A stretch of 64,000 bases of DNA from Haloarchaeobius amylolyticus (GTDB lineage Archaea > Halobacteriota > Halobacteria > Halobacteriales > Natrialbaceae), in the NCBI RefSeq assembly GCF_026616195.1, contig NZ_JANHDH010000002.1:806001-870000 (forward strand), read 5' to 3'. The notes beneath the pieces are model-generated. The model made no database searches. It saw only the letters and a program-made list of their open reading frames with translations, and was not told the DNA's origin. Position 1 is the stretch's first letter; the number at the start of each line of letters is the position of its first letter. Positions 28,110 to 35,300 of this stretch are shown piece after piece. The position numbers and the translations under genes were made by a program.

Positions 28110-28150
28110 CGTCGAGAGGGAGAATCGGACGGCAGAGGGAGATCTGAACC
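28110..28150 (-). repeat. Two degenerate copies of the tRNA-Ser 3' end
   Basis: On the plus strand, CGTCGAGAGGGAGAATCGG (28110-28128) and CGGCAGAGGGAGATCTGAAC (28130-28149) copy, with a few mismatches, the complement of the tRNA-Ser acceptor/T-arm end (CGCCGAGAGGGAGATTTGAA at 28252-28271). The two copies are 20 nt apart and oriented like the tRNA. Confidence 0.6.
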
Positions 28151-28190
28151 TCACTCGCTCCGCGTTCGCTTCGCTCGCTGGTTCAAATCT
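28140..28190. repeat. Inverted repeat containing tRNA T-arm sequence
   Basis: AGATCTGAACC (28140-28150) pairs with GGTTCAAATCT (28180-28190) at 10 of 11 positions; the loop is the CTCGCT-rich low-complexity sequence common near haloarchaeal tRNAs. It overlaps the second tRNA 3'-end copy. Confidence 0.55.
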
Positions 28191-28200
28191 ACGTACTGGG

Positions 28201-28251
28201 TTTTTCCATCACAGACGACTCGCTACGCTCGTCGTTTTTGTGATGGAAAAA
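28201..28251. repeat. 13-bp inverted repeat abutting tRNA-Ser 3' end
   Basis: TTTTTCCATCACA (28201-28213) and TGTGATGGAAAAA (28239-28251) pair perfectly, with an inner GACGA/TCGTC stem. On the tRNA strand the first bases after the tRNA are TTTTT, so this hairpin and T-run may also serve as the tRNA terminator. Confidence 0.65.
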
Positions 28252-28336
28252 CGCCGAGAGGGAGATTTGAACTCCCGAGTCCGTGAGGACAGTAGATTTC
28301 GAATCTACCGCCTTGGCCAGGCTAGGCTATCTCGGC
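28252..28336 (-). tRNA. tRNA-Ser(CGA)
   Basis: Read on the minus strand: acceptor GCCGAGA (28336-28330) pairs with TCTCGGC, with discriminator G at 28252; the anticodon stem GTAGA/TCTAC encloses TTCGAAA with anticodon CGA (reads UCG). A long variable arm TGTCCTCACGGACT is diagnostic of tRNA-Ser, and the T arm is GGGAG-TTCAAAT-CTCCC. Length is 85 nt and the CCA is not encoded. An AT-rich promoter (28350-28385) precedes it. The 3' end is followed by an inverted repeat and two degenerate copies of its own end. Confidence 0.95.
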
Positions 28337-28437: not shown

Positions 28438-29388
28438 ATGGACGTAGACCAAGCGCACGAGGACTGCAACGCGGTCCTCGATGCCATCGGGAACGCGGTC
28501 ATCGCAGACCGAGAGTTCCTCGAAACCGTACTGCTCGGTGTCGTCGGTCGTGGCCACGTGCTCCTGGAGGACGTGCCCGGGACCGGCAAGACGCTGACCG
28601 CACGGTCGATGGCCTCCGCCCTCGGATTGTCCTTCTCCCGCATCCAGTTCACCCCCGACCTCCTCCCCGCCGACGTCACCGGTACGCACGTGTTCAACGA
28701 GGAGACCCGCGAGTTCGAGTTCCAGGCGGGTCCCATCTTCGCGAACATCGTCCTCGCCGACGAGATCAACCGTGCGCCGCCGAAGACCCAGGCCGCGCTC
28801 CTCGAAGCCATGGAGGAAGGGCAGGTGACCGTCGACGGCGAGACGCGAATGCTCCCCCAGCCGTTCTTCGTCATCGCGACGCAGAACCCGGTCGAGCAGG
28901 AGGGGACCTTCCCCCTGCCCGAGGCGCAGGTCGACCGCTTCATCGTGAAGTCCTCCATCGGCTACCCCGACGAGGCCGGCGAGTTCGAACTCCTCCAGCG
29001 CCGCGCCGGTCGCGTCGAGCAGTCGCCGAGCATCGAGCGCGTCCTCACCGACGACGAGGTCGCCGACCTCCGACAGGTCCCCGAGGACATCCGCGTCGAC
29101 GACGACCTGCTGACGTACATGACGAAGATCTGCCGCGAGACCAGACAGGACGGCCGCGTCGAGATCGGTGTCTCCCCACGTGGGACCCAGCGCCTGTTCG
29201 AGTCCTCGCGTGCCTACGCGACCATGATGGGTCGCGAGTACGTCACGCCGGACGACATCAAGCGCGTCGCCCAGCCCGTGCTCGCACACCGACTGGTGCT
29301 GACGCCCGACGCGATGGTCAACAACGTCGAGAAGCGCGAGGTCATCGCGAACGTGCTCGACTCGGTGCCGGTACCGACCGTCGAGTAA
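28438..29388 (+). CDS. MoxR-type AAA+ ATPase
   Basis: A 316-residue AAA_3 ATPase. Walker A is VPGTGKT (about 46-52, Lys51), Walker B IVLADEINRAPPKTQ (Asp108, Glu109), sensor 1 VIATQNPVEQEGTFPLPEAQVDRF. MoxR ATPases work as chaperones, usually with DUF58/von Willebrand-type and DUF4129 partners in one operon. Here the partner genes lie 4.5 kb away on the opposite strand (33894-37953). A TATA-like AATTTATT (28408-28415) precedes the ATG at 28438. Confidence 0.93.
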   Translation: MDVDQAHEDCNAVLDAIGNAVIADREFLETVLLGVVGRGHVLLEDVPGTGKTLTARSMASALGLSFSRIQFTPDLLPADVTGTHVFNEETREFEFQAGPIFANIVLADEINRAPPKTQAALLEAMEEGQVTVDGETRMLPQPFFVIATQNPVEQEGTFPLPEAQVDRFIVKSSIGYPDEAGEFELLQRRAGRVEQSPSIERVLTDDEVADLRQVPEDIRVDDDLLTYMTKICRETRQDGRVEIGVSPRGTQRLFESSRAYATMMGREYVTPDDIKRVAQPVLAHRLVLTPDAMVNNVEKREVIANVLDSVPVPTVE

Positions 29389-29536
29389 GCCGCGGTCTCG
29401 ACCGGTTCGAGCCCCGACTGTACACATTCTTTGAGGACCACACCCACCGCGCAGCAGCCGGCCTGTCACGGTAACTGGCACCTACACCCCACTGGAGCCA
29501 TTAGGATTATGTCAGGTCGGTCGATTGGGTAGTCCA

Positions 29537-30694
29537 ATGCGTCGGCGGAGATTTCTGATGGGACTGGGGGCTGCCTCGATTTCCGGGTGTCTGCGGTTGC
29601 AGAGTGGGGCTACCGACACGCCGGGGCGGTCGGAAGCGGCGACGGCCGGGACCGGCACACAGACCAGCAACACCGCTCGGACGGCACAGACCGAAGAGAC
29701 GACCTCCACGAGGGGCGAGCTGACGTTCCCGAGTGGCCTCTCAGAAGCAGGGGTCACGGAGTTCCTCTACCCGACCCACGTTCAGGCGCTGTTCCAGACG
29801 AGCTACCGGGCGAAGTGGGTCAAGCAGGACCGGACGAACTCGACCGTCACGTGGCAACAGCAGTACCTCGGCGACCAGGGAACCGCCCTCGGGAGCTGGC
29901 AGAGCGATGCCGGCGGCCGTATCGAGATGTACCGGTCCCTCGAGGGTGACTTCTGGCGAGAGGAACTCGGGAGCCGGGCGACGTTCGGCAAGGACATCGG
30001 CAGGGGGGACCCGGCCGTCTGGGGGGAGGAGGTTCGGCCGCTCGTCGCGGCCGGTGACTGGAGCGCGCCGACCCGTGTCGACGACTCCAGACCGGCGATC
30101 TGGACGGTCACGACGAGCACGGTCGGCGACGAATCCGTTCTTCCTGGCCGGAGTCACGGCCAGCCGGGGACGGTCCTGTCGATTCCCTCTGCGGAGATGC
30201 ACGTCGACGAGCGCGGTATCATCCGGAAACTGGTCGCGAGCTACCGGATTCGCGACGAGGGCGTCGGCGAGTTCGCCTACGATACGCACTACACCATCGA
30301 CCGGGTGGGGGAGGTCGCCCTCACAGCGCCGTCGTGGCTCTCGACGGCCGAAGAGCGGGTCCCCGACGTCACGGCGACACTCACGGACGATTCGCGATAC
30401 GTCCGGTTCGAAGTCCAGTCGGGCAACCGGCTGGAGCCGGGCACGACCGTCGTCGTCGACGACAGCGGCGAGGGTGGTGGGTTCAGTCGTATCCTGGAGT
30501 CGCCGGTCGAACCGAACACACCGATGTATCTGTACAGGCCAGGGGGGTCACGAGACGGGGGCTACGTGAACGCCGGTCTCTCACGGGGCTCTCGACCGTC
30601 CGATGCGAGCCCTGCGACGCTCGATAGCACCTACGCGCTGACTGCCCGGCGAGGGGACAACTTCTATTTCGACCGCATCGGTGGTCTGCGCTGA
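29537..30694 (+). CDS. Tat-exported lipoprotein of unknown function
   Basis: A 385-residue protein. MRRRRFLMGLGAASISGC gives a twin-Arg signal and lipobox (Cys18), followed by a Thr/Ala-rich linker (about 20-60). The mature domain begins FPSGLSEAGVTEFLYPTHVQALFQTSYRAKW and is rich in beta strands (TNSTVTWQQQYLG, WTVTTSTV), recalling haloarchaeal surface lipoproteins with LppX/LolA-like outer sheets, though I claim no homology. ATG 29537 follows a TTAGGATTATG region. No operon partner; the next gene converges. Confidence 0.75.
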   Translation: MRRRRFLMGLGAASISGCLRLQSGATDTPGRSEAATAGTGTQTSNTARTAQTEETTSTRGELTFPSGLSEAGVTEFLYPTHVQALFQTSYRAKWVKQDRTNSTVTWQQQYLGDQGTALGSWQSDAGGRIEMYRSLEGDFWREELGSRATFGKDIGRGDPAVWGEEVRPLVAAGDWSAPTRVDDSRPAIWTVTTSTVGDESVLPGRSHGQPGTVLSIPSAEMHVDERGIIRKLVASYRIRDEGVGEFAYDTHYTIDRVGEVALTAPSWLSTAEERVPDVTATLTDDSRYVRFEVQSGNRLEPGTTVVVDDSGEGGGFSRILESPVEPNTPMYLYRPGGSRDGGYVNAGLSRGSRPSDASPATLDSTYALTARRGDNFYFDRIGGLR

Positions 30695-30742
30695 CGGCTC
30701 TCGTGAGCCGGCGTCACCCTGGCGCACCGGAACTCCCGACAC

Positions 30743-31699
30743 TCACGACGACTCCAGTTCGAACTCGACGCGCCAGTCGACCTCGGTCGACGGGCCCTGC
30801 CCGACCCCATCGCGTTCGTAGCTGAGCGTCTCGGCGACGGTGTAGCGGCCCGGCGCGTCGAAGGCCAACTCGCGCAGTGCGTCGTGCTCGAACGCGGGAC
30901 GCAACTCGTACTCCTTCTCGATGGTCTCACCCGGTTCGACCGGCGTCGAGATGCCGATGGAGCACGTCATCAGTGTCGCCTCGCCGTCGACCTCGGCGAA
31001 ACTCACGCAGCCCTCCTCGGTGTAGTCTCGCCAGAGCAGGGCGCGCTGGTCGTCGCGGGGCCCATCGGCGAACAGGACCGAGAAGGGCGGTACCGTCCCG
31101 CTGAAGACCGACTGCGTCTGGTCCCCCGTGTTCGTCAGGGAGAACGCGATGACTCCCGGGTCGCCGGGAGCGAGGTGGTCGTCGACGAGTTCGGCGTCGA
31201 ACTGGAGGGCCGGGTCGCCGTCGGGGTCCGCCTGGTAGACGGCGACCCCCCAGTGGCTGGCCGTGTCGTCGCTGTCCGTGTTCGCCTCCCAGGTGAAGAA
31301 GTCGACGCGCTCGGTCAGCGCCTGGAGACCGTCCGGAACCGCCTCGCGCCAGAGTTTCCCCTCGCTGAGTATCTCCTTCACGACTGCCCGGTGCTCGGGG
31401 TTCTCGATCTCCGAGACGTCCATCACCGTCTGGTCGCCCTCCTCGCGTTCGACCGCCTCGGCAGAGTAGACCGCCGTGATTCGCAGGTAGTACGGCTTCG
31501 TCGGGCCGACCTTCGTCGTCGCCAGGTCGAACTCCGAGACGGTGAACTCGGCCGTCGTGCCACCTGTTCCGGCCGGCGTGTCGGTCGGAGGGTCTCCGGC
31601 CGTGGTGGTCGTGGTCGCGGGGTCGTCACCCGTCAGGGTGGTCGTACAGCCGGCGACGAGGGTCGCACCGAGGGAGGCGAGGACGTTGCGGCGGCGCAT
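30743..31699 (-). CDS. Tat-exported lipoprotein of unknown function
   Basis: A 318-residue protein starting MRRRNVLASLGATLVAGC (Tat/lipobox, Cys18), then a Thr/Pro/Gly linker. The mature part begins AEFTVSEFDLATTKVGPTKPYYLRITAVYSAEAV and ends in an immunoglobulin-like region (ISTPVEPGETIEKEYELRP, APGRYTVAETLSYE). Two Cys near EEGCVSFAEVDGEATLMTCS may form a disulfide. Ig-like folds are common in haloarchaeal surface proteins. Role unknown. It diverges from the MscS gene. Confidence 0.75.
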   Translation of the reverse strand: MRRRNVLASLGATLVAGCTTTLTGDDPATTTTTAGDPPTDTPAGTGGTTAEFTVSEFDLATTKVGPTKPYYLRITAVYSAEAVEREEGDQTVMDVSEIENPEHRAVVKEILSEGKLWREAVPDGLQALTERVDFFTWEANTDSDDTASHWGVAVYQADPDGDPALQFDAELVDDHLAPGDPGVIAFSLTNTGDQTQSVFSGTVPPFSVLFADGPRDDQRALLWRDYTEEGCVSFAEVDGEATLMTCSIGISTPVEPGETIEKEYELRPAFEHDALRELAFDAPGRYTVAETLSYERDGVGQGPSTEVDWRVEFELESS

Positions 31700-31875
31700 A
31701 TGTCATCGGTTCGGGTGGACGGCTGAAAGCCCTTCAGGTAGCTGAAAGCGCGATTGTAGCGTTCGAGTCGTCGCTGCCGCGTCTCGACGTGCTCGCTCGC
31801 ACCCCGGCGTTTCGAATCCATGGTACGTTTCACATGTAGATACTTACGGGAATCCGTCGTATCTGGTCGTGTGCC

Positions 31876-32757
31876 ATGATACCACTTCAGCAACAGTCAG
31901 CATTCGACCCGCAGCAGTACGTCGACCCGGTCGTCGACGCGGCAGTCACCGTCGTCCTGTTCGTCGTCGTCTTCGCCGTCCTCTACGTCGTCGGGAAGTC
32001 GTTCGCGACCAGCACCACGCGAAGCGCCCTCCGGCGGCGGGGCTACGACGACACCCTCGTCGGGCTGGCCGTCAGCACGGCCGGGGTGGTGGCGACCGTG
32101 GTCGCCGTCGCCCTGGCGGCGACCGTCGCCGGGTTCGGCGTCGTGCTCGCGGCCTTCGCGACGCTGGCCGGCGCCCTGGCGCTGGCCGTCGGTTTCGCCG
32201 CACAGGACCTCATCGCGAACTTCGTCGCCGGCGTGTTCATCATCCAGGACGAGCCGTTCGAGGTCGGCGACTGGATCGAGTGGGACGGGAACTCCGGGGT
32301 CGTCCGGGAGATCGAGTTACGCGTGACGAAACTCGACACCTTCGACAACGAACTCGTGACGGTCCCGAACGCGGACCTCGCGGGGACGGCCGTGGTGAAC
32401 AACGTCGCGAACGAGACCCGCCGGGTGACCTACAACTTCGGCATCGGGTACGGCGACGACGTGGAGCTCGCCCGGGAGGTCATCGTCGAGGAGGGCGCGA
32501 GTATCGACGGCGTGCTCGCGGAGCCAGCGCCGACCGCCCCAGTCACCGACCTCGGCGATTCGGCGGTCGTCCTGCAGGGCCGCATCTGGATCGACCCGGA
32601 CGAGAGCAGCTACGGCGCGGTCCGTACCGAGTTCGTCGAGCGGGTCAAGGACCGCTTCGACGCCGAGGGCATCGACATGCCCTACCCGAACACGGAGCTC
32701 TCGGGCGGGCTCGAGGTCACGAATGCCGGTGAGTTGCAGGCGGTGGCGGACGACTGA
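31876..32757 (+). CDS. MscS-family mechanosensitive channel
   Basis: A 293-residue channel that opens under membrane tension and releases solutes on hypo-osmotic shock, which matters for a halophile. Three helices (about 22-42, 60-82, 84-106) lead into the pore helix LALAVGFAAQDLIANFVAGVFI, and the beta domain DEPFEVGDWIEWDGNSGVVREIELRVTKLDTFDNELVTVPNA is the MscS signature. A C-terminal alpha/beta domain follows. ATG 31876 is in a short leader; TATA-like TACTTACGG region lies about 30 nt upstream. Confidence 0.93.
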   Translation: MIPLQQQSAFDPQQYVDPVVDAAVTVVLFVVVFAVLYVVGKSFATSTTRSALRRRGYDDTLVGLAVSTAGVVATVVAVALAATVAGFGVVLAAFATLAGALALAVGFAAQDLIANFVAGVFIIQDEPFEVGDWIEWDGNSGVVREIELRVTKLDTFDNELVTVPNADLAGTAVVNNVANETRRVTYNFGIGYGDDVELAREVIVEEGASIDGVLAEPAPTAPVTDLGDSAVVLQGRIWIDPDESSYGAVRTEFVERVKDRFDAEGIDMPYPNTELSGGLEVTNAGELQAVADD

Positions 32758-32803
32758 CCCCGCCCCGGCAAGGCATTTCCCGTGCGAGAGAATGGAGGCG
32801 CCT

Positions 32804-33280
32804 ATGACCGGTTTCCGCATCCGTCAGGCGACACCAGCCGACGCGGACGACCTCGCGCGAGTGTACCGGAGTGCGTACCAGGAGAACCGCGAACTCGGGT
32901 TCCCGGCGAAGGCAGCGTCGGTCGAGGAGTCCGAGGTCGAGCAGTGGATTCGAGACCACTGGGTCCTCGTCGCGGTCGCCGCCGCCGACGATGCGGTCCT
33001 CGGGGGCGTCAGACTCGAACCGACCGGCCCCGACAGGGTGAAGCTCAGCCGGCTGGGCGTCCACGAGGACTGGAAGGGCGAGGGCCTCGGGAGCGACCTG
33101 GTCAGCCGGGCGGAGACGGTCGTCCGCGAGGGTGGCTACGAGACCATCTGGCTCACGACGCCGGGAGCGCATCCCTACCTCCCCGGGTTCTATCGTCGCC
33201 GTGGCTACGTCGAGACGGGCGAGTACCCGCTCGAGTACCGGGACTACGACGAGATCATCATGGAGAAACAACTCGAGTAA
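32804..33280 (+). CDS. GNAT-family N-acetyltransferase
   Basis: A 158-residue acetyltransferase: FRIRQATPADADDLARVYRSAYQ at the start and the acetyl-CoA loop in LGVHEDWKGEGLGSDLVSRAE (about 85-105), then HPYLPGFYRRRGYVETGEYP. Substrate unknown. ATG 32804 was chosen to match the family N-terminus; an in-frame ATG at 32792 adds four residues. It follows the MscS gene by 46 nt in the same direction and may share its transcript. Confidence 0.87.
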   Translation: MTGFRIRQATPADADDLARVYRSAYQENRELGFPAKAASVEESEVEQWIRDHWVLVAVAAADDAVLGGVRLEPTGPDRVKLSRLGVHEDWKGEGLGSDLVSRAETVVREGGYETIWLTTPGAHPYLPGFYRRRGYVETGEYPLEYRDYDEIIMEKQLE

Positions 33281-33324
33281 CGTCGATTCGCCCCTCGCCG
33301 CCACGCCGACTAATCGTCGTGGGT

Positions 33325-33366
33325 CGACACCCTGTGTCGGTCCGTCGCGCTGGAACCTCGGGTTCC
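33325..33366. terminator. Paired hairpins between convergent genes
   Basis: CGACAC-CCT-GTGTCG (33325-33339) and GGAACC-TCG-GGTTCC (33352-33366) lie between the GNAT gene and the converging membrane-protein gene. Such dyads suit a bidirectional terminator; no strong T-run is present. Confidence 0.4.
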
Positions 33367-33384
33367 GGTGGGCGTGTACCGTGC

Positions 33385-33894
33385 CTACTGCCGCAGCGCC
33401 GTCGTCAGGATGACCACGGCGAGCAACAGCAACGCCAGCGCGGAGACGGGCTGGCCCTCGGTCGCGACCTGGTACACCGCGTAGGCCACGCCGCCGGTCA
33501 GGGTCCCGACCACGGCCGACCCGCCGATGTGTGCCAGTTCTGCCCGCGTCGTCTCGGCCTCGCGGCCGAGTTGCTCGCCGAGGCCGATGGCGTTCTGGCC
33601 AACGTCCCAGGCGAGGACGGTCGCGGTCGTGCCGACGAGCATGAGCAGTTCGGCCGAGGGCGCGGTCCCCGTCGCGCCGGCGAAGACCAGCCCGGCGAGC
33701 AGGCCGACCGCGCCGAGGTGGACCAGTCGGCGGGAGCCGAGCACCACGCCGGGGGCGAGTGCGAGCATGCCGAGGGCGCCCCCGAGCACGCCGACGGAGG
33801 CGGTCAGGATGGCCGCGAGCGCGGCGAAGGCGCCGGCGCCCAGGGCGACCATCGCGGAGAGCCGGGCCGGCCGGTGGTCGATCTCGGCCGTCAT
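33385..33894 (-). CDS. Membrane protein ending the DUF58 operon
   Basis: A 169-residue protein with about five membrane helices and few charges (LSAMVALGAGAFAALAAILTASVGVLGG...). Its ATG overlaps the TGA of the DUF58 gene (ATGA at 33892-33896), so translation is coupled. I recall proteins of this type annotated DUF7519 behind haloarchaeal DUF58 genes. It is probably the membrane part of the MoxR-linked complex; function unknown. Confidence 0.75.
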   Translation of the reverse strand: MTAEIDHRPARLSAMVALGAGAFAALAAILTASVGVLGGALGMLALAPGVVLGSRRLVHLGAVGLLAGLVFAGATGTAPSAELLMLVGTTATVLAWDVGQNAIGLGEQLGREAETTRAELAHIGGSAVVGTLTGGVAYAVYQVATEGQPVSALALLLLAVVILTTALRQ

Positions 33895-35300
33895 CAGGCC
33901 CACCTCCGGGAGCCGCGGGCGAGGGCGTTCGCGAGCCCTTCCTCCGGGTCCCAGTCGATGACGCGGATGCCGCCCTGGCGGAGTTCCGTGATGCGGTTAC
34001 GTCGCTCCACGCGGGCGATGCGTTGCCCGATGGTCTCGCGGTCGGTGGCGTCCGGGCTGACGATGGTCACCTTGTGCCCGTGGGCGTGGAGCAGGCGGGC
34101 GGCCTGCACCGCGTCGTCGTCACACAGCGGCGTGAAGAAGACCAGCTGGGCGTCGCCGGGGAGGCGCTTCCGGAGGTTGCGCACCCCGAGCGTCACCGAG
34201 AAGTAGCCGGTCGGCTTCTCCGAGGAGAGCGCCGGGTGGTGGGCGAACAGTTCCTCGACCTTCGCGCGGTGCTCGTTACCGAGGCCGGGCCGGAGCCACA
34301 CCGACTGCGGGGCGAGCGCGGTGATGCCGACCCGGTCACCCGTGTCCAGCAGCGCGGTGAACACCCGTCCGGCGGCGTCGATGCCGAGGTCGGCCGCGTG
34401 CAGGCCCTCCTCGTCCCGGCGGACGTAGGCCTCCTTGCGCAGGTCGAGCAGGCACATGACGGTCGCGGCGCGCTCCTCGCGGAACAGCAGGGTCGCGAGG
34501 TCACCGGTTCGCGCGTACCGTTTCCAGTCCACCCGCGAGAGGGGGTCGCCCCGGCGGTACTCGCGGGTCGAGTGGAACTCGACGCCGTCGCCGCCGATGT
34601 CGGTGTTCACGCGCCCGGCGTACTGCGACGCCTGCTTGCGGAGTGGGACCGGAATCGTCGCCTCGAGCGAGGGCGTACACACCATGTCGCCGCCGGTCCG
34701 GAAGCGGGTGTGGGTCTCCTCGGACCCGGACCAGCCGCGGACGATGGCCTCGCAGGTCTTGAACTCGTGGGTGCCGCGCTTGGCGGTCACGGTGTAGGAG
34801 AACGAGTCGGTCTCGCCCGGCCGGAGTGCGGTCCCGAGCCGGGCCGAGCCGTCCTTCACCGAGAGTTCCTCGGGCACGCCGTCGACCAGTCGCACGTCCG
34901 GGAGCATCTGGCTCCCGTCGTTGGTCACGCGGACAGTCACGGTCACCTCGTCGCCGAGGTCCGGCGCGGGGTCGCTGAGTTCGCGGGTGATGCGGAGGGT
35001 CACGGGCGGCGCCTCGGTGATGCGAGCGTAGGCGAGGTAGCCGACGCCGACGACCGCCGAGAGCAGAAGCGCGGGCTGGCGCGTGATGACGCCGACGGCG
35101 CCCGCGACGAGCGTCACGGCGGCGACGCCGCGCCAGTGGTTCGTCGCCTCGGTCGTGTCGGTGATGACGCGCTGGGTCTGGACCGCGTCGGTGCCCGGGG
35201 CGTCGGCCTCACTGGCGGCTGCTGGCTGGTGGCCGCTGTCGGCACTCCCCTCGTCGCGTCCGGTCGATTCCTCGGCGTCGGTCGTCACTGACTTGCTCAT
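33894..35300 (-). CDS. DUF58 domain-containing protein
   Basis: A 468-residue protein. Residues about 20-60 are a low-complexity acidic linker and two helices (about 65-95), then an Ig-like region (VTVTVRVTNDGSQMLPDVRLVDGVPEEL), and the DUF58 core EFHSTREYRRGDPLSRVDWKRYARTGDLATLLFREERAATVMCLLD with a von Willebrand-like C-terminal half. DUF58 proteins work with MoxR ATPases. ATG 35300 overlaps the stop of the upstream gene (ATGA); the longer frame upstream is a shadow of another gene. Confidence 0.92.
   Translation of the reverse strand: MSKSVTTDAEESTGRDEGSADSGHQPAAASEADAPGTDAVQTQRVITDTTEATNHWRGVAAVTLVAGAVGVITRQPALLLSAVVGVGYLAYARITEAPPVTLRITRELSDPAPDLGDEVTVTVRVTNDGSQMLPDVRLVDGVPEELSVKDGSARLGTALRPGETDSFSYTVTAKRGTHEFKTCEAIVRGWSGSEETHTRFRTGGDMVCTPSLEATIPVPLRKQASQYAGRVNTDIGGDGVEFHSTREYRRGDPLSRVDWKRYARTGDLATLLFREERAATVMCLLDLRKEAYVRRDEEGLHAADLGIDAAGRVFTALLDTGDRVGITALAPQSVWLRPGLGNEHRAKVEELFAHHPALSSEKPTGYFSVTLGVRNLRKRLPGDAQLVFFTPLCDDDAVQAARLLHAHGHKVTIVSPDATDRETIGQRIARVERRNRITELRQGGIRVIDWDPEEGLANALARGSRRWA

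Follow-up and report, generated by a model that had tools for sequence, protein, structure and literature searches.

tRNA genes are classic docking sites of mobile DNA, and a tRNA gene that is trailed by copies of its own 3' end raises the question of whether an integrative element once entered there. Such a gene, for tRNA-Ser(CGA), lies in the window considered here, a stretch of 64,000 nucleotides (G000:C2:806001-870000) from a 4.6-Mb haloarchaeal genome (G000), along with the features listed in Table 1. The original prediction for this locus, made from the sequence alone, recognized two copies of the tRNA 3' end and two inverted repeats behind the gene, and read them as a typical footprint of integrative elements, here possibly an old scar or a duplication made without an integrase. 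The description itself stands because the scores of the direct copies lie beyond those of all shuffled sequences: matched against the last 22 bases of the tRNA, the two copies score 14 (best) and 13 (second), and when the 200-nt flank was put through 2000 dinucleotide shuffles neither score was reached (0/2000), though the inverted copy alone is weaker, with a score of 11 that 21 of 2000 shuffles reach. Both inverted repeats were likewise recovered, the one abutting the tRNA being a perfect 14-bp repeat rather than a 13-bp one, with arms (28239-28252 and 28200-28213) that take in the last base of the tRNA. In the 400-nt downstream flank, the tRNA's own end tops all 50 tRNA 3' ends of G000 (27 versus 20 for the next), and the 156-nt flank folds with a z of -5.05. 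The inverted copy at 28180-28206 reads GAAAAAC-CCAGTACGT-AGATTTGAACC, for which a perfect copy would be GAAAAAC-GCCGAGAGGG-AGATTTGAAC. An Rfam scan of the flank yielded only the tRNA above the gathering score, with one sub-threshold match on the opposite strand.

Table 1. Features at and behind tRNA-Ser(CGA); positions are those of the window.
Feature	Position	Strand	Description
tRNA-Ser(CGA)	28252-28336	minus	Rfam tRNA, 57 bits; its 3' end (S, bases 52/53 to 73) recurs in the flank
Hairpin A	28200-28252	minus	14-bp perfect inverted repeat abutting tRNA-Ser(CGA); loop with GACGAGCGTAGCGAGTCGTC
S' of Ser(CGA)	28181-28213	minus	Inverted trailer, scrambled acceptor part and T-arm of the same tRNA
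T' arm of hairpin B (inverted T-arm)	28180-28190	minus	11 nt; 91% complementary to the paired direct copy
Core B	28151-28179	minus	29 nt, AGCGAGCGAAGCGAACG...GAGCGAGTGA type; a different 48-nt core in the congener G005
Direct copy 1 of the tRNA-Ser(CGA) 3' end	28130-28150	minus	GGTTCAGATCTCCCTCTGCCG
Direct copy 2 of the tRNA-Ser(CGA) 3' end	28110-28129	minus	Degenerate

Hairpin A and the T-arm repeat of Ser(CGA) are parts of one unit with the order S - A - S' - B - S, where S is the tail of the tRNA from base 52/53 to base 73 and S' is an inverted copy of the trailer and the tRNA tail, whose acceptor part is degenerate. For 110 of 125 direct copies the first base is 52 or 53, and 91 of the 125 reach base 73, as counted with a query that spans only bases 52-73. 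A 45-base tRNA query again places the left boundary at -22/-21 from the tRNA end in most cases; it also shows that some direct copies extend beyond base 73, where the next unit begins. At least two copies are present at 28 of the 91 loci with copies, with Lys(TTT) having three in G000. The inverted copy, too, is that of the adjacent tRNA: among 59 loci with a direct copy from G000 and two congeners (G005 and G002), which were not selected for the pattern, its score exceeds the median for the other tRNA ends at 54 and falls below it at one, and at 24 it equals or exceeds every other tRNA end. Set against one random other tRNA at each of 92 loci, it wins 80 times, loses 5 times and ties 7 times. 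Hairpin A reaches a score of at least 8 in 27 of 139 flanks (139 of 141 tRNA records were kept, the two others having no recognizable T-arm or flank), as against 2.7% of shuffles and 8 of 139 for the 110 nt upstream of the tRNA; it is above shuffles yet not universal.

Certain variations in these units deserve mention. Single pyrimidine insertions recur in the copied T-loop (TTCACAATC, TTCAACATC and TTCATAATC; 9 of 125 copies, plus two with TTCACACTC), and in such copies from G000, G005 and the loci sampled across the class the inverted arm often still matches the intact tRNA. The insertions, by giving ACA or ATA in the copied T-loop, had suggested an archaeal H/ACA guide RNA, an idea we gave up, since such a guide would have too short a pocket and the region is itself paired. 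Further, a hairpin module some 60 nt long is nested in certain cores (GCGGTTCG...AACCGCGA.GCGAACGG...CCGTGAGC), which is common to Ser(TGA) and Glu(CTC) of G000 and to Lys(CTT), Gly(GCC) and Asn of G005.

A search of G000 with the Ser(CGA) flank gave 14 matches, with a tRNA close by at all seven of the other loci examined (L002-L008). More generally, when the repeat unit was sought elsewhere in the same genome, as the original prediction had proposed, it was found to recur behind many tRNA genes, each time with the sequence of that gene's own tRNA. The counts that follow rest on all 50 tRNAs of G000 over the cut-off and on partial, mostly score-ranked sets from the congeners G005 and G002, from a member of another family (G166) and from a genome outside Halobacteria (G372), none of them selected for the pattern. 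At 30 of the 50 G000 tRNAs, with ties and weak scores counted, none of the 50 ends matches the 400 nt downstream better than the gene's own last 30 nt, whereas the same test is passed by one of 50 upstream and two of 50 at 800-1200 nt. At a score of at least 26, the own end is present downstream versus upstream of 27 versus 2 of the 50 tRNAs in G000, 18 versus 0 of 25 in G005, 11 versus 0 of 25 in G002 and 14 versus 2 of 30 in G166, while the non-halobacterial G372 has it at 4 of 30 on each side. A second criterion for direct copies, which a random other tRNA's end passed in 68 of 679 trials, gave counts of 29/50, 18/25 and 12/25 for G000, G005 and G002, and 33/39 for the loci sampled across the class. 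About 20 of the 50 G000 tRNAs are without a unit. An event specific to tRNA-Ser(CGA) is ruled out, the S-A-S'-B-S layout being found behind many tRNAs, and so is a chance origin, by the shuffles, the reversed-pattern controls and the comparisons of own with other tRNA ends. Tail-repeat units are also carried on smaller contigs of G000, by Lys(TTT) in a tRNA cluster (G000:C3:597472-598996) and, in an array, by a lone tRNA (G000:C6:885-972).

The surroundings of tRNA-Ser(CGA) bear on the integrative element that the original prediction had in mind. A search for PF00589 integrases in six genomes of the genus found nothing out to 90 kb from this tRNA (the G001 contig stops at that distance), which agrees with the prediction that no integrase is present. 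PF00589 recombinases do occur in all six genomes, and their activity on the units is conceivable, none being linked to them. An element bounded by the same sequence downstream of the tRNA in relatives, which had been proposed as a check, did not turn up: the 9.3-9.5 kb downstream contain no further copy of the tRNA-Ser(CGA) end at a score of at least 13 in any of the six genomes, and in five of them, G000 included, a direct copy lies within 200 nt of the tRNA. The absence of PF00589 within 90 kb and of a further tRNA-end copy in the 9.3-9.5 kb downstream speaks strongly against a conventional island scar, and the old scar left by an integrase-bearing element is further contradicted by a layout that is class-wide. 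What survives of the proposed footprint are the copies of the tRNA 3' end, the att-like geometry and the variation of whole units elsewhere.

It had also been suggested that a MoxR gene near the tRNA lies apart from its usual partners through a related rearrangement. The separation is real: in G001-G004 MoxR adjoins a 172-aa gene and a gene that we take to be DUF58-like, whereas in G000 about 4.0 kb (29388-33385) lie between MoxR (28438-29388) and the 172-aa gene (33385-33903), and in G005 the distance from MoxR to its partner genes is about 1.8 kb. The extra DNA, however, is on the side of MoxR that is far from tRNA-Ser(CGA), and appears to be unrelated to the repeats. As a separate observation, the 3' side of tRNA-Ser(CGA) is a synteny break: the genes behind it differ between G000/G005 and G001-G004 (L140-L144), and G003 has approximately 1.3-1.8 kb extra before the first gene common to G001, G002 and G004.

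Within the unit, B cores are common to different tRNAs and genera and the arms remain specific to their own tRNA. The direct copies of Ser(CGA) in G000 and G005 have kept the same A-to-G change, and the cores of the two are wholly different (29 versus 48 nt). The 48-nt core of G005, in turn, is found in identical form behind tRNA-Leu(GAG) in another family (L077). When 88 distinct core records of at least 36 nt were compared between loci, 31 pairs had 90% identity or more, and in 20 of these 31 the two tRNAs accept different amino acids (many of the 20 pairs are within Halorubrum, and one, L148 and L192, is from a single strain going by the titles). With a 67-nt core query devoid of tRNA arms, matches came from 36 of 117 genomes, which represent 21 of 49 genera. 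Of 30 loci examined from this query, 27 have a same-strand tRNA end at most 700 nt upstream (the tRNA distance is uncertain at one core-query locus, L289, which ends at a contig edge), and the remaining three have T-arm-like flanks too.

A register comparison of 27 candidate ortholog tRNA pairs from G000 and G005, set against a null of 144 comparisons between unrelated tRNAs (mean score 7.3, maximum 24.8), revealed differences by whole units. An exact shift of one unit is seen at Lys(TTT), Val(TAC), Lys(CTT), Thr(CGT) and Val(GAC), with scores of 29.0-60.6 (Val(GAC) has a second register scoring 25.2). In the latter four the extra unit, which may be in either genome, adjoins the tRNA; at Lys(TTT) it is ambiguous which unit is the extra one because the array alternates two unit types. 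Lys(CTT) presents an empty site in G000 that is filled in G005. Asn (21.0) and Gly(CCC) (19.8) follow the same trend at scores below the null maximum, and Glu(CTC) is ambiguous between registers scoring 30.0, 29.8 and 27.6. The register is unchanged at Asp, both Ala, Val(CAC), Gly(GCC) and Ser(TGA), and the other pairs of the 27 gave no score above the null. Since whole units are present in one relative and absent from the other, insertion or excision at the tRNA-end sequence does happen; the differences represent gain or loss, and two genomes cannot tell which.

At the level of structure, the first 150 nt behind tRNAs fold on the sense strand with a mean z of -2.12 in G000, -2.77 in G005 and -1.71 in G002, versus -0.59, -0.34 and -0.30, respectively, for the upstream control. 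The antisense strand folds too, if less extremely (-1.66, -2.25 and -1.32). The layout NNN-AG...CT-NNN is shared by 64 of 127 distinct cores. At two pairs of their inner stem, 127 of 128 cells hold a standard pair, GC, CG, AT and TA all being in use, as against a mean of 56 and at most 79 standard cells in shuffles; the outermost of the three inner-stem pairs (pair 0) is standard in only 42 of the 64. The core motif GARC..AGYGA lies on the sense strand of the tRNA in 70 distinct cores and on the antisense strand in one, and is absent from 56. A stricter form of it occurs 23 times in a nominal 20 kb behind tRNAs versus 12 times in 535 kb elsewhere in the G000 DNA examined; its density in the 400 nt behind tRNAs is about 51 times that elsewhere, with 19 instances on the same strand and 4 on the opposite one. 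Rfam, applied to eight loci, returned only tRNA and an SRP RNA match over the gathering score; it gives no known RNA family for the units at these loci.

Of 292 genomes sampled from the class, 206 have the hairpin pattern T'-B-T and none matches a reversed-pattern control. Across the phylum, with class membership taken from the kinship annotation, the pattern is present in 58 of 81 Halobacteria versus none of 311 other genomes. At all 30 loci of one set (L068-L097) the hairpin lies 19-214 nt downstream of a same-strand tRNA (the second tRNA listed in the case of L075 and L080), though the class loci L068-L099 are biased because they were chosen for a match to the hairpin pattern. Among the matches listed in a further collection, 69 of 80 organism-assigned loci (L145-L224) are haloarchaeal, with 70 hairpins, a count that leaves aside 39 loci lacking an organism title. 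Of these 70 listed hairpins, 65 have a same-strand tRNA end upstream; of the other five, four are less than 500 nt from the edge of the locus, and at L220 the tRNA is 1.8 kb off. The genera among the matches listed include Halorubrum, Haloarcula, Haloferax and Natrinema, the pattern being present in Haloferax prahovense, H. mucosum and H. elongans. Two of the 11 non-haloarchaeal loci among the matches listed have a tRNA end directly upstream. A Woesearchaeota contig (L180 6377-6439) has a clear S-S'-S layout beside a tRNA, and a rumen Lachnospiraceae contig (L149 672-732) has several tail copies, forward and inverted, beside a tRNA; the loops of both are unrelated. On account of these tRNA-tail copies the process is not strictly confined to Halobacteria. 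The hairpin pattern was also noticed in twelve viral contigs (L264-L275).

Taken together, the units have arms specific to their own tRNA and a left boundary that is fixed; they are concentrated in tRNA flanks, their stems covary, their cores are shared between tRNAs and genera, and congeners differ by whole units. Our leading interpretation, to which we would give a little less than an even chance, is that the Ser(CGA) feature belongs to a haloarchaea-wide set of non-coding units that are gained and lost by recombination at the T-loop-to-end sequence of the tRNA. Under this proposal, recombination at the tRNA's own T-loop-to-end sequence would add or remove units, with the folded hairpin probably being recognized by an enzyme acting in trans. 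Such recombination would rewrite the functional 3' end of the tRNA, and foreign arms would hence not be tolerated, which could be why the arms stay own-specific; the fixed orientation and the unit-exact changes would likewise follow from the use of the T-loop-to-end sequence. Simple site-specific recombination does not predict the full inverted S' with its trailer.

It is in accounting for the inverted copy that template switching, which we see as a possible but rather doubtful origin, has its strength. Here, a polymerase would switch strands at the T-arm and trailer hairpins, writing S' and then S again, the stems would later be corrected, and tandem units would grow or shrink by ordinary recombination between S copies. 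Two strand switches yield precisely an S-S'-S zigzag of own sequences. Template switching can create stems and multibase compensatory changes (PMC8794818), and would also account for the covariation of the stems. The zigzag in the Woesearchaeota contig and the tail copies in the Lachnospiraceae contig argue for a general mechanism of this kind. However, it leaves unexplained why nearly the same B core should recur with unlike tRNAs and in separate genera, why the core motif keeps its sense orientation (70 to 1) and why the units are prevalent in one archaeal class.

That orientation, along with the strong sense-strand folding of the first 150 nt, the covarying stems, the conserved core and the roughly 51-fold enrichment of its strict motif behind tRNAs, is what might be expected of a selected RNA element. 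The trailer hairpins would then act in the 3' processing, termination or turnover of the tRNA precursor, and own-sequence arms would be needed to fold against the tRNA's own tail. The original prediction had itself named a conserved tRNA-terminator structure as the finding that would count against it: the structure is indeed widespread, whereas a terminator function remains only putative. An RNA role explains the fold and the orientation, not the turnover and the arrays, and the folding of the antisense strand, the roughly 20 of 50 tRNAs that do without a unit, the differences between congeners and the tandem arrays all speak against it; we regard it as distinctly unlikely.

Still less probable, in our assessment, is a mobile repeat of the SMR-A type, wherein the B (and A) hairpins would have been inserted into the center of a pre-existing T'-T palindrome. 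SMR-A is about 110 bp long, has no transposase and inserts within palindromes of IS605-type elements (PMC3119063). The full replacement of the Ser(CGA) B core between G000 and G005, with the shared A-to-G change retained, is compatible with such insertion. SMR-A targets palindromes of IS605-type elements or PATEs; of the core-query loci, 27 of 30 lie behind tRNAs. Insertion at the center of a palindrome should give both orientations, as opposed to the 70 to 1 of the motif, with 56 cores having no motif, and it offers no origin for the own-specific T' and S copies. Finally, a conventional scar of an integrase-borne element in tRNA-Ser(CGA), which the direct repeats of the tRNA 3' end would fit, is barely credible given that the six genomes have neither PF00589 nearby nor a distant copy, that the interval is short and non-coding, and that many other tRNAs show the layout too. 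The ideas of a TnpB guide RNA and of a casposon were set aside, with nothing in their support.

We thus find a whole archaeal class with structured own-sequence units behind many of its tRNAs, whose hairpin cores are common to tRNAs and genera. If a recombinase moves these units, they would constitute a new system of small elements with a site that is read by its structure; if there is no recombinase, they would be a striking natural record of template switching. The question is testable in a tractable genus because Haloferax species carry the hairpin pattern. Either way, haloarchaeal copies of tRNA tails are not to be called island scars before checking for such units.

Several known systems offer partial parallels. 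Integrase-borne tRNA elements, as reviewed for archaeal tyrosine recombinases and their tRNA attachment sites, likewise have a direct repeat that runs from the T-loop through the 3' end of the tRNA (PMC8371274). Comparable accounts concern a tRNA-like attP in HF2 (PMC8707807) and, in Haloquadratum, tRNA duplications of 22 and 43 nt at prophages as well as repeat-mediated deletions (PMC3119063). Unlike these elements, the units described here have no PF00589 gene near Ser(CGA) and no gene-bearing interval, include an extra inverted copy and are found at many tRNAs. In the same source, SMR-A and the PATEs of Haloquadratum walsbyi resemble the units in being haloarchaeal, about 100 bp long, hairpin-rich, without a transposase and linked to palindromes, and the route by which SMR-A inserts into palindromes is called enigmatic; they differ in sitting in IS605-type elements, rather than behind tRNAs with own-tRNA arms and a terminal 22-nt direct copy (PMC3119063). 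SMR-A is further defined as an element of about 110 bp with terminal inverted repeats that does not duplicate its target, and the units depart from this in that a direct tRNA-tail copy accompanies them. A literature search, with subscription journals mostly outside its reach, found no description of such tRNA-tail units.

The rtT repeats of Escherichia coli tyrT are reportedly tandem units downstream of a tRNA gene, each with a copy of the tRNA 3' end, and are said to have no inverted copy and no exchangeable hairpin core and to occur at one locus. The haloarchaeal units parallel them as tandem units with the tRNA 3' end (at least two copies at 28 of 91 loci), and are distinguished by the inverted copy of the own tRNA (above the median at 54 of 59 loci), the exchangeable cores and the class-wide distribution. 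Integron arrays are composed of units that each have an attC hairpin of conserved fold and variable sequence. The parallels to these cassettes include the arrays, hairpins with a conserved fold and variable sequence (127/128 in the covariation analysis) and GTT at the outer arm. As for insertion next to a fixed end, which characterizes integrons, the extra unit adjoins the tRNA in four of five shifts, Lys(TTT) being ambiguous and each shift being either a gain or a loss. By contrast, the haloarchaeal units are gene-less and their arms are dictated by the tRNA. The T-loop sequence G53-T54-T55-C56 is common to nearly all tRNAs. An unlikely but conceivable extension of these parallels is that we are dealing with gene-less integron-like cassette arrays, in which the tRNA T-loop would be the fixed site, T'-B-T the folded site that is read by its structure, and selection would keep the arrays own-specific; these would be independent of bacterial integrons and would have the whole tRNA set as docking sites. 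The units look like small exchangeable DNA modules, as opposed to the scar of an ordinary inserted virus.
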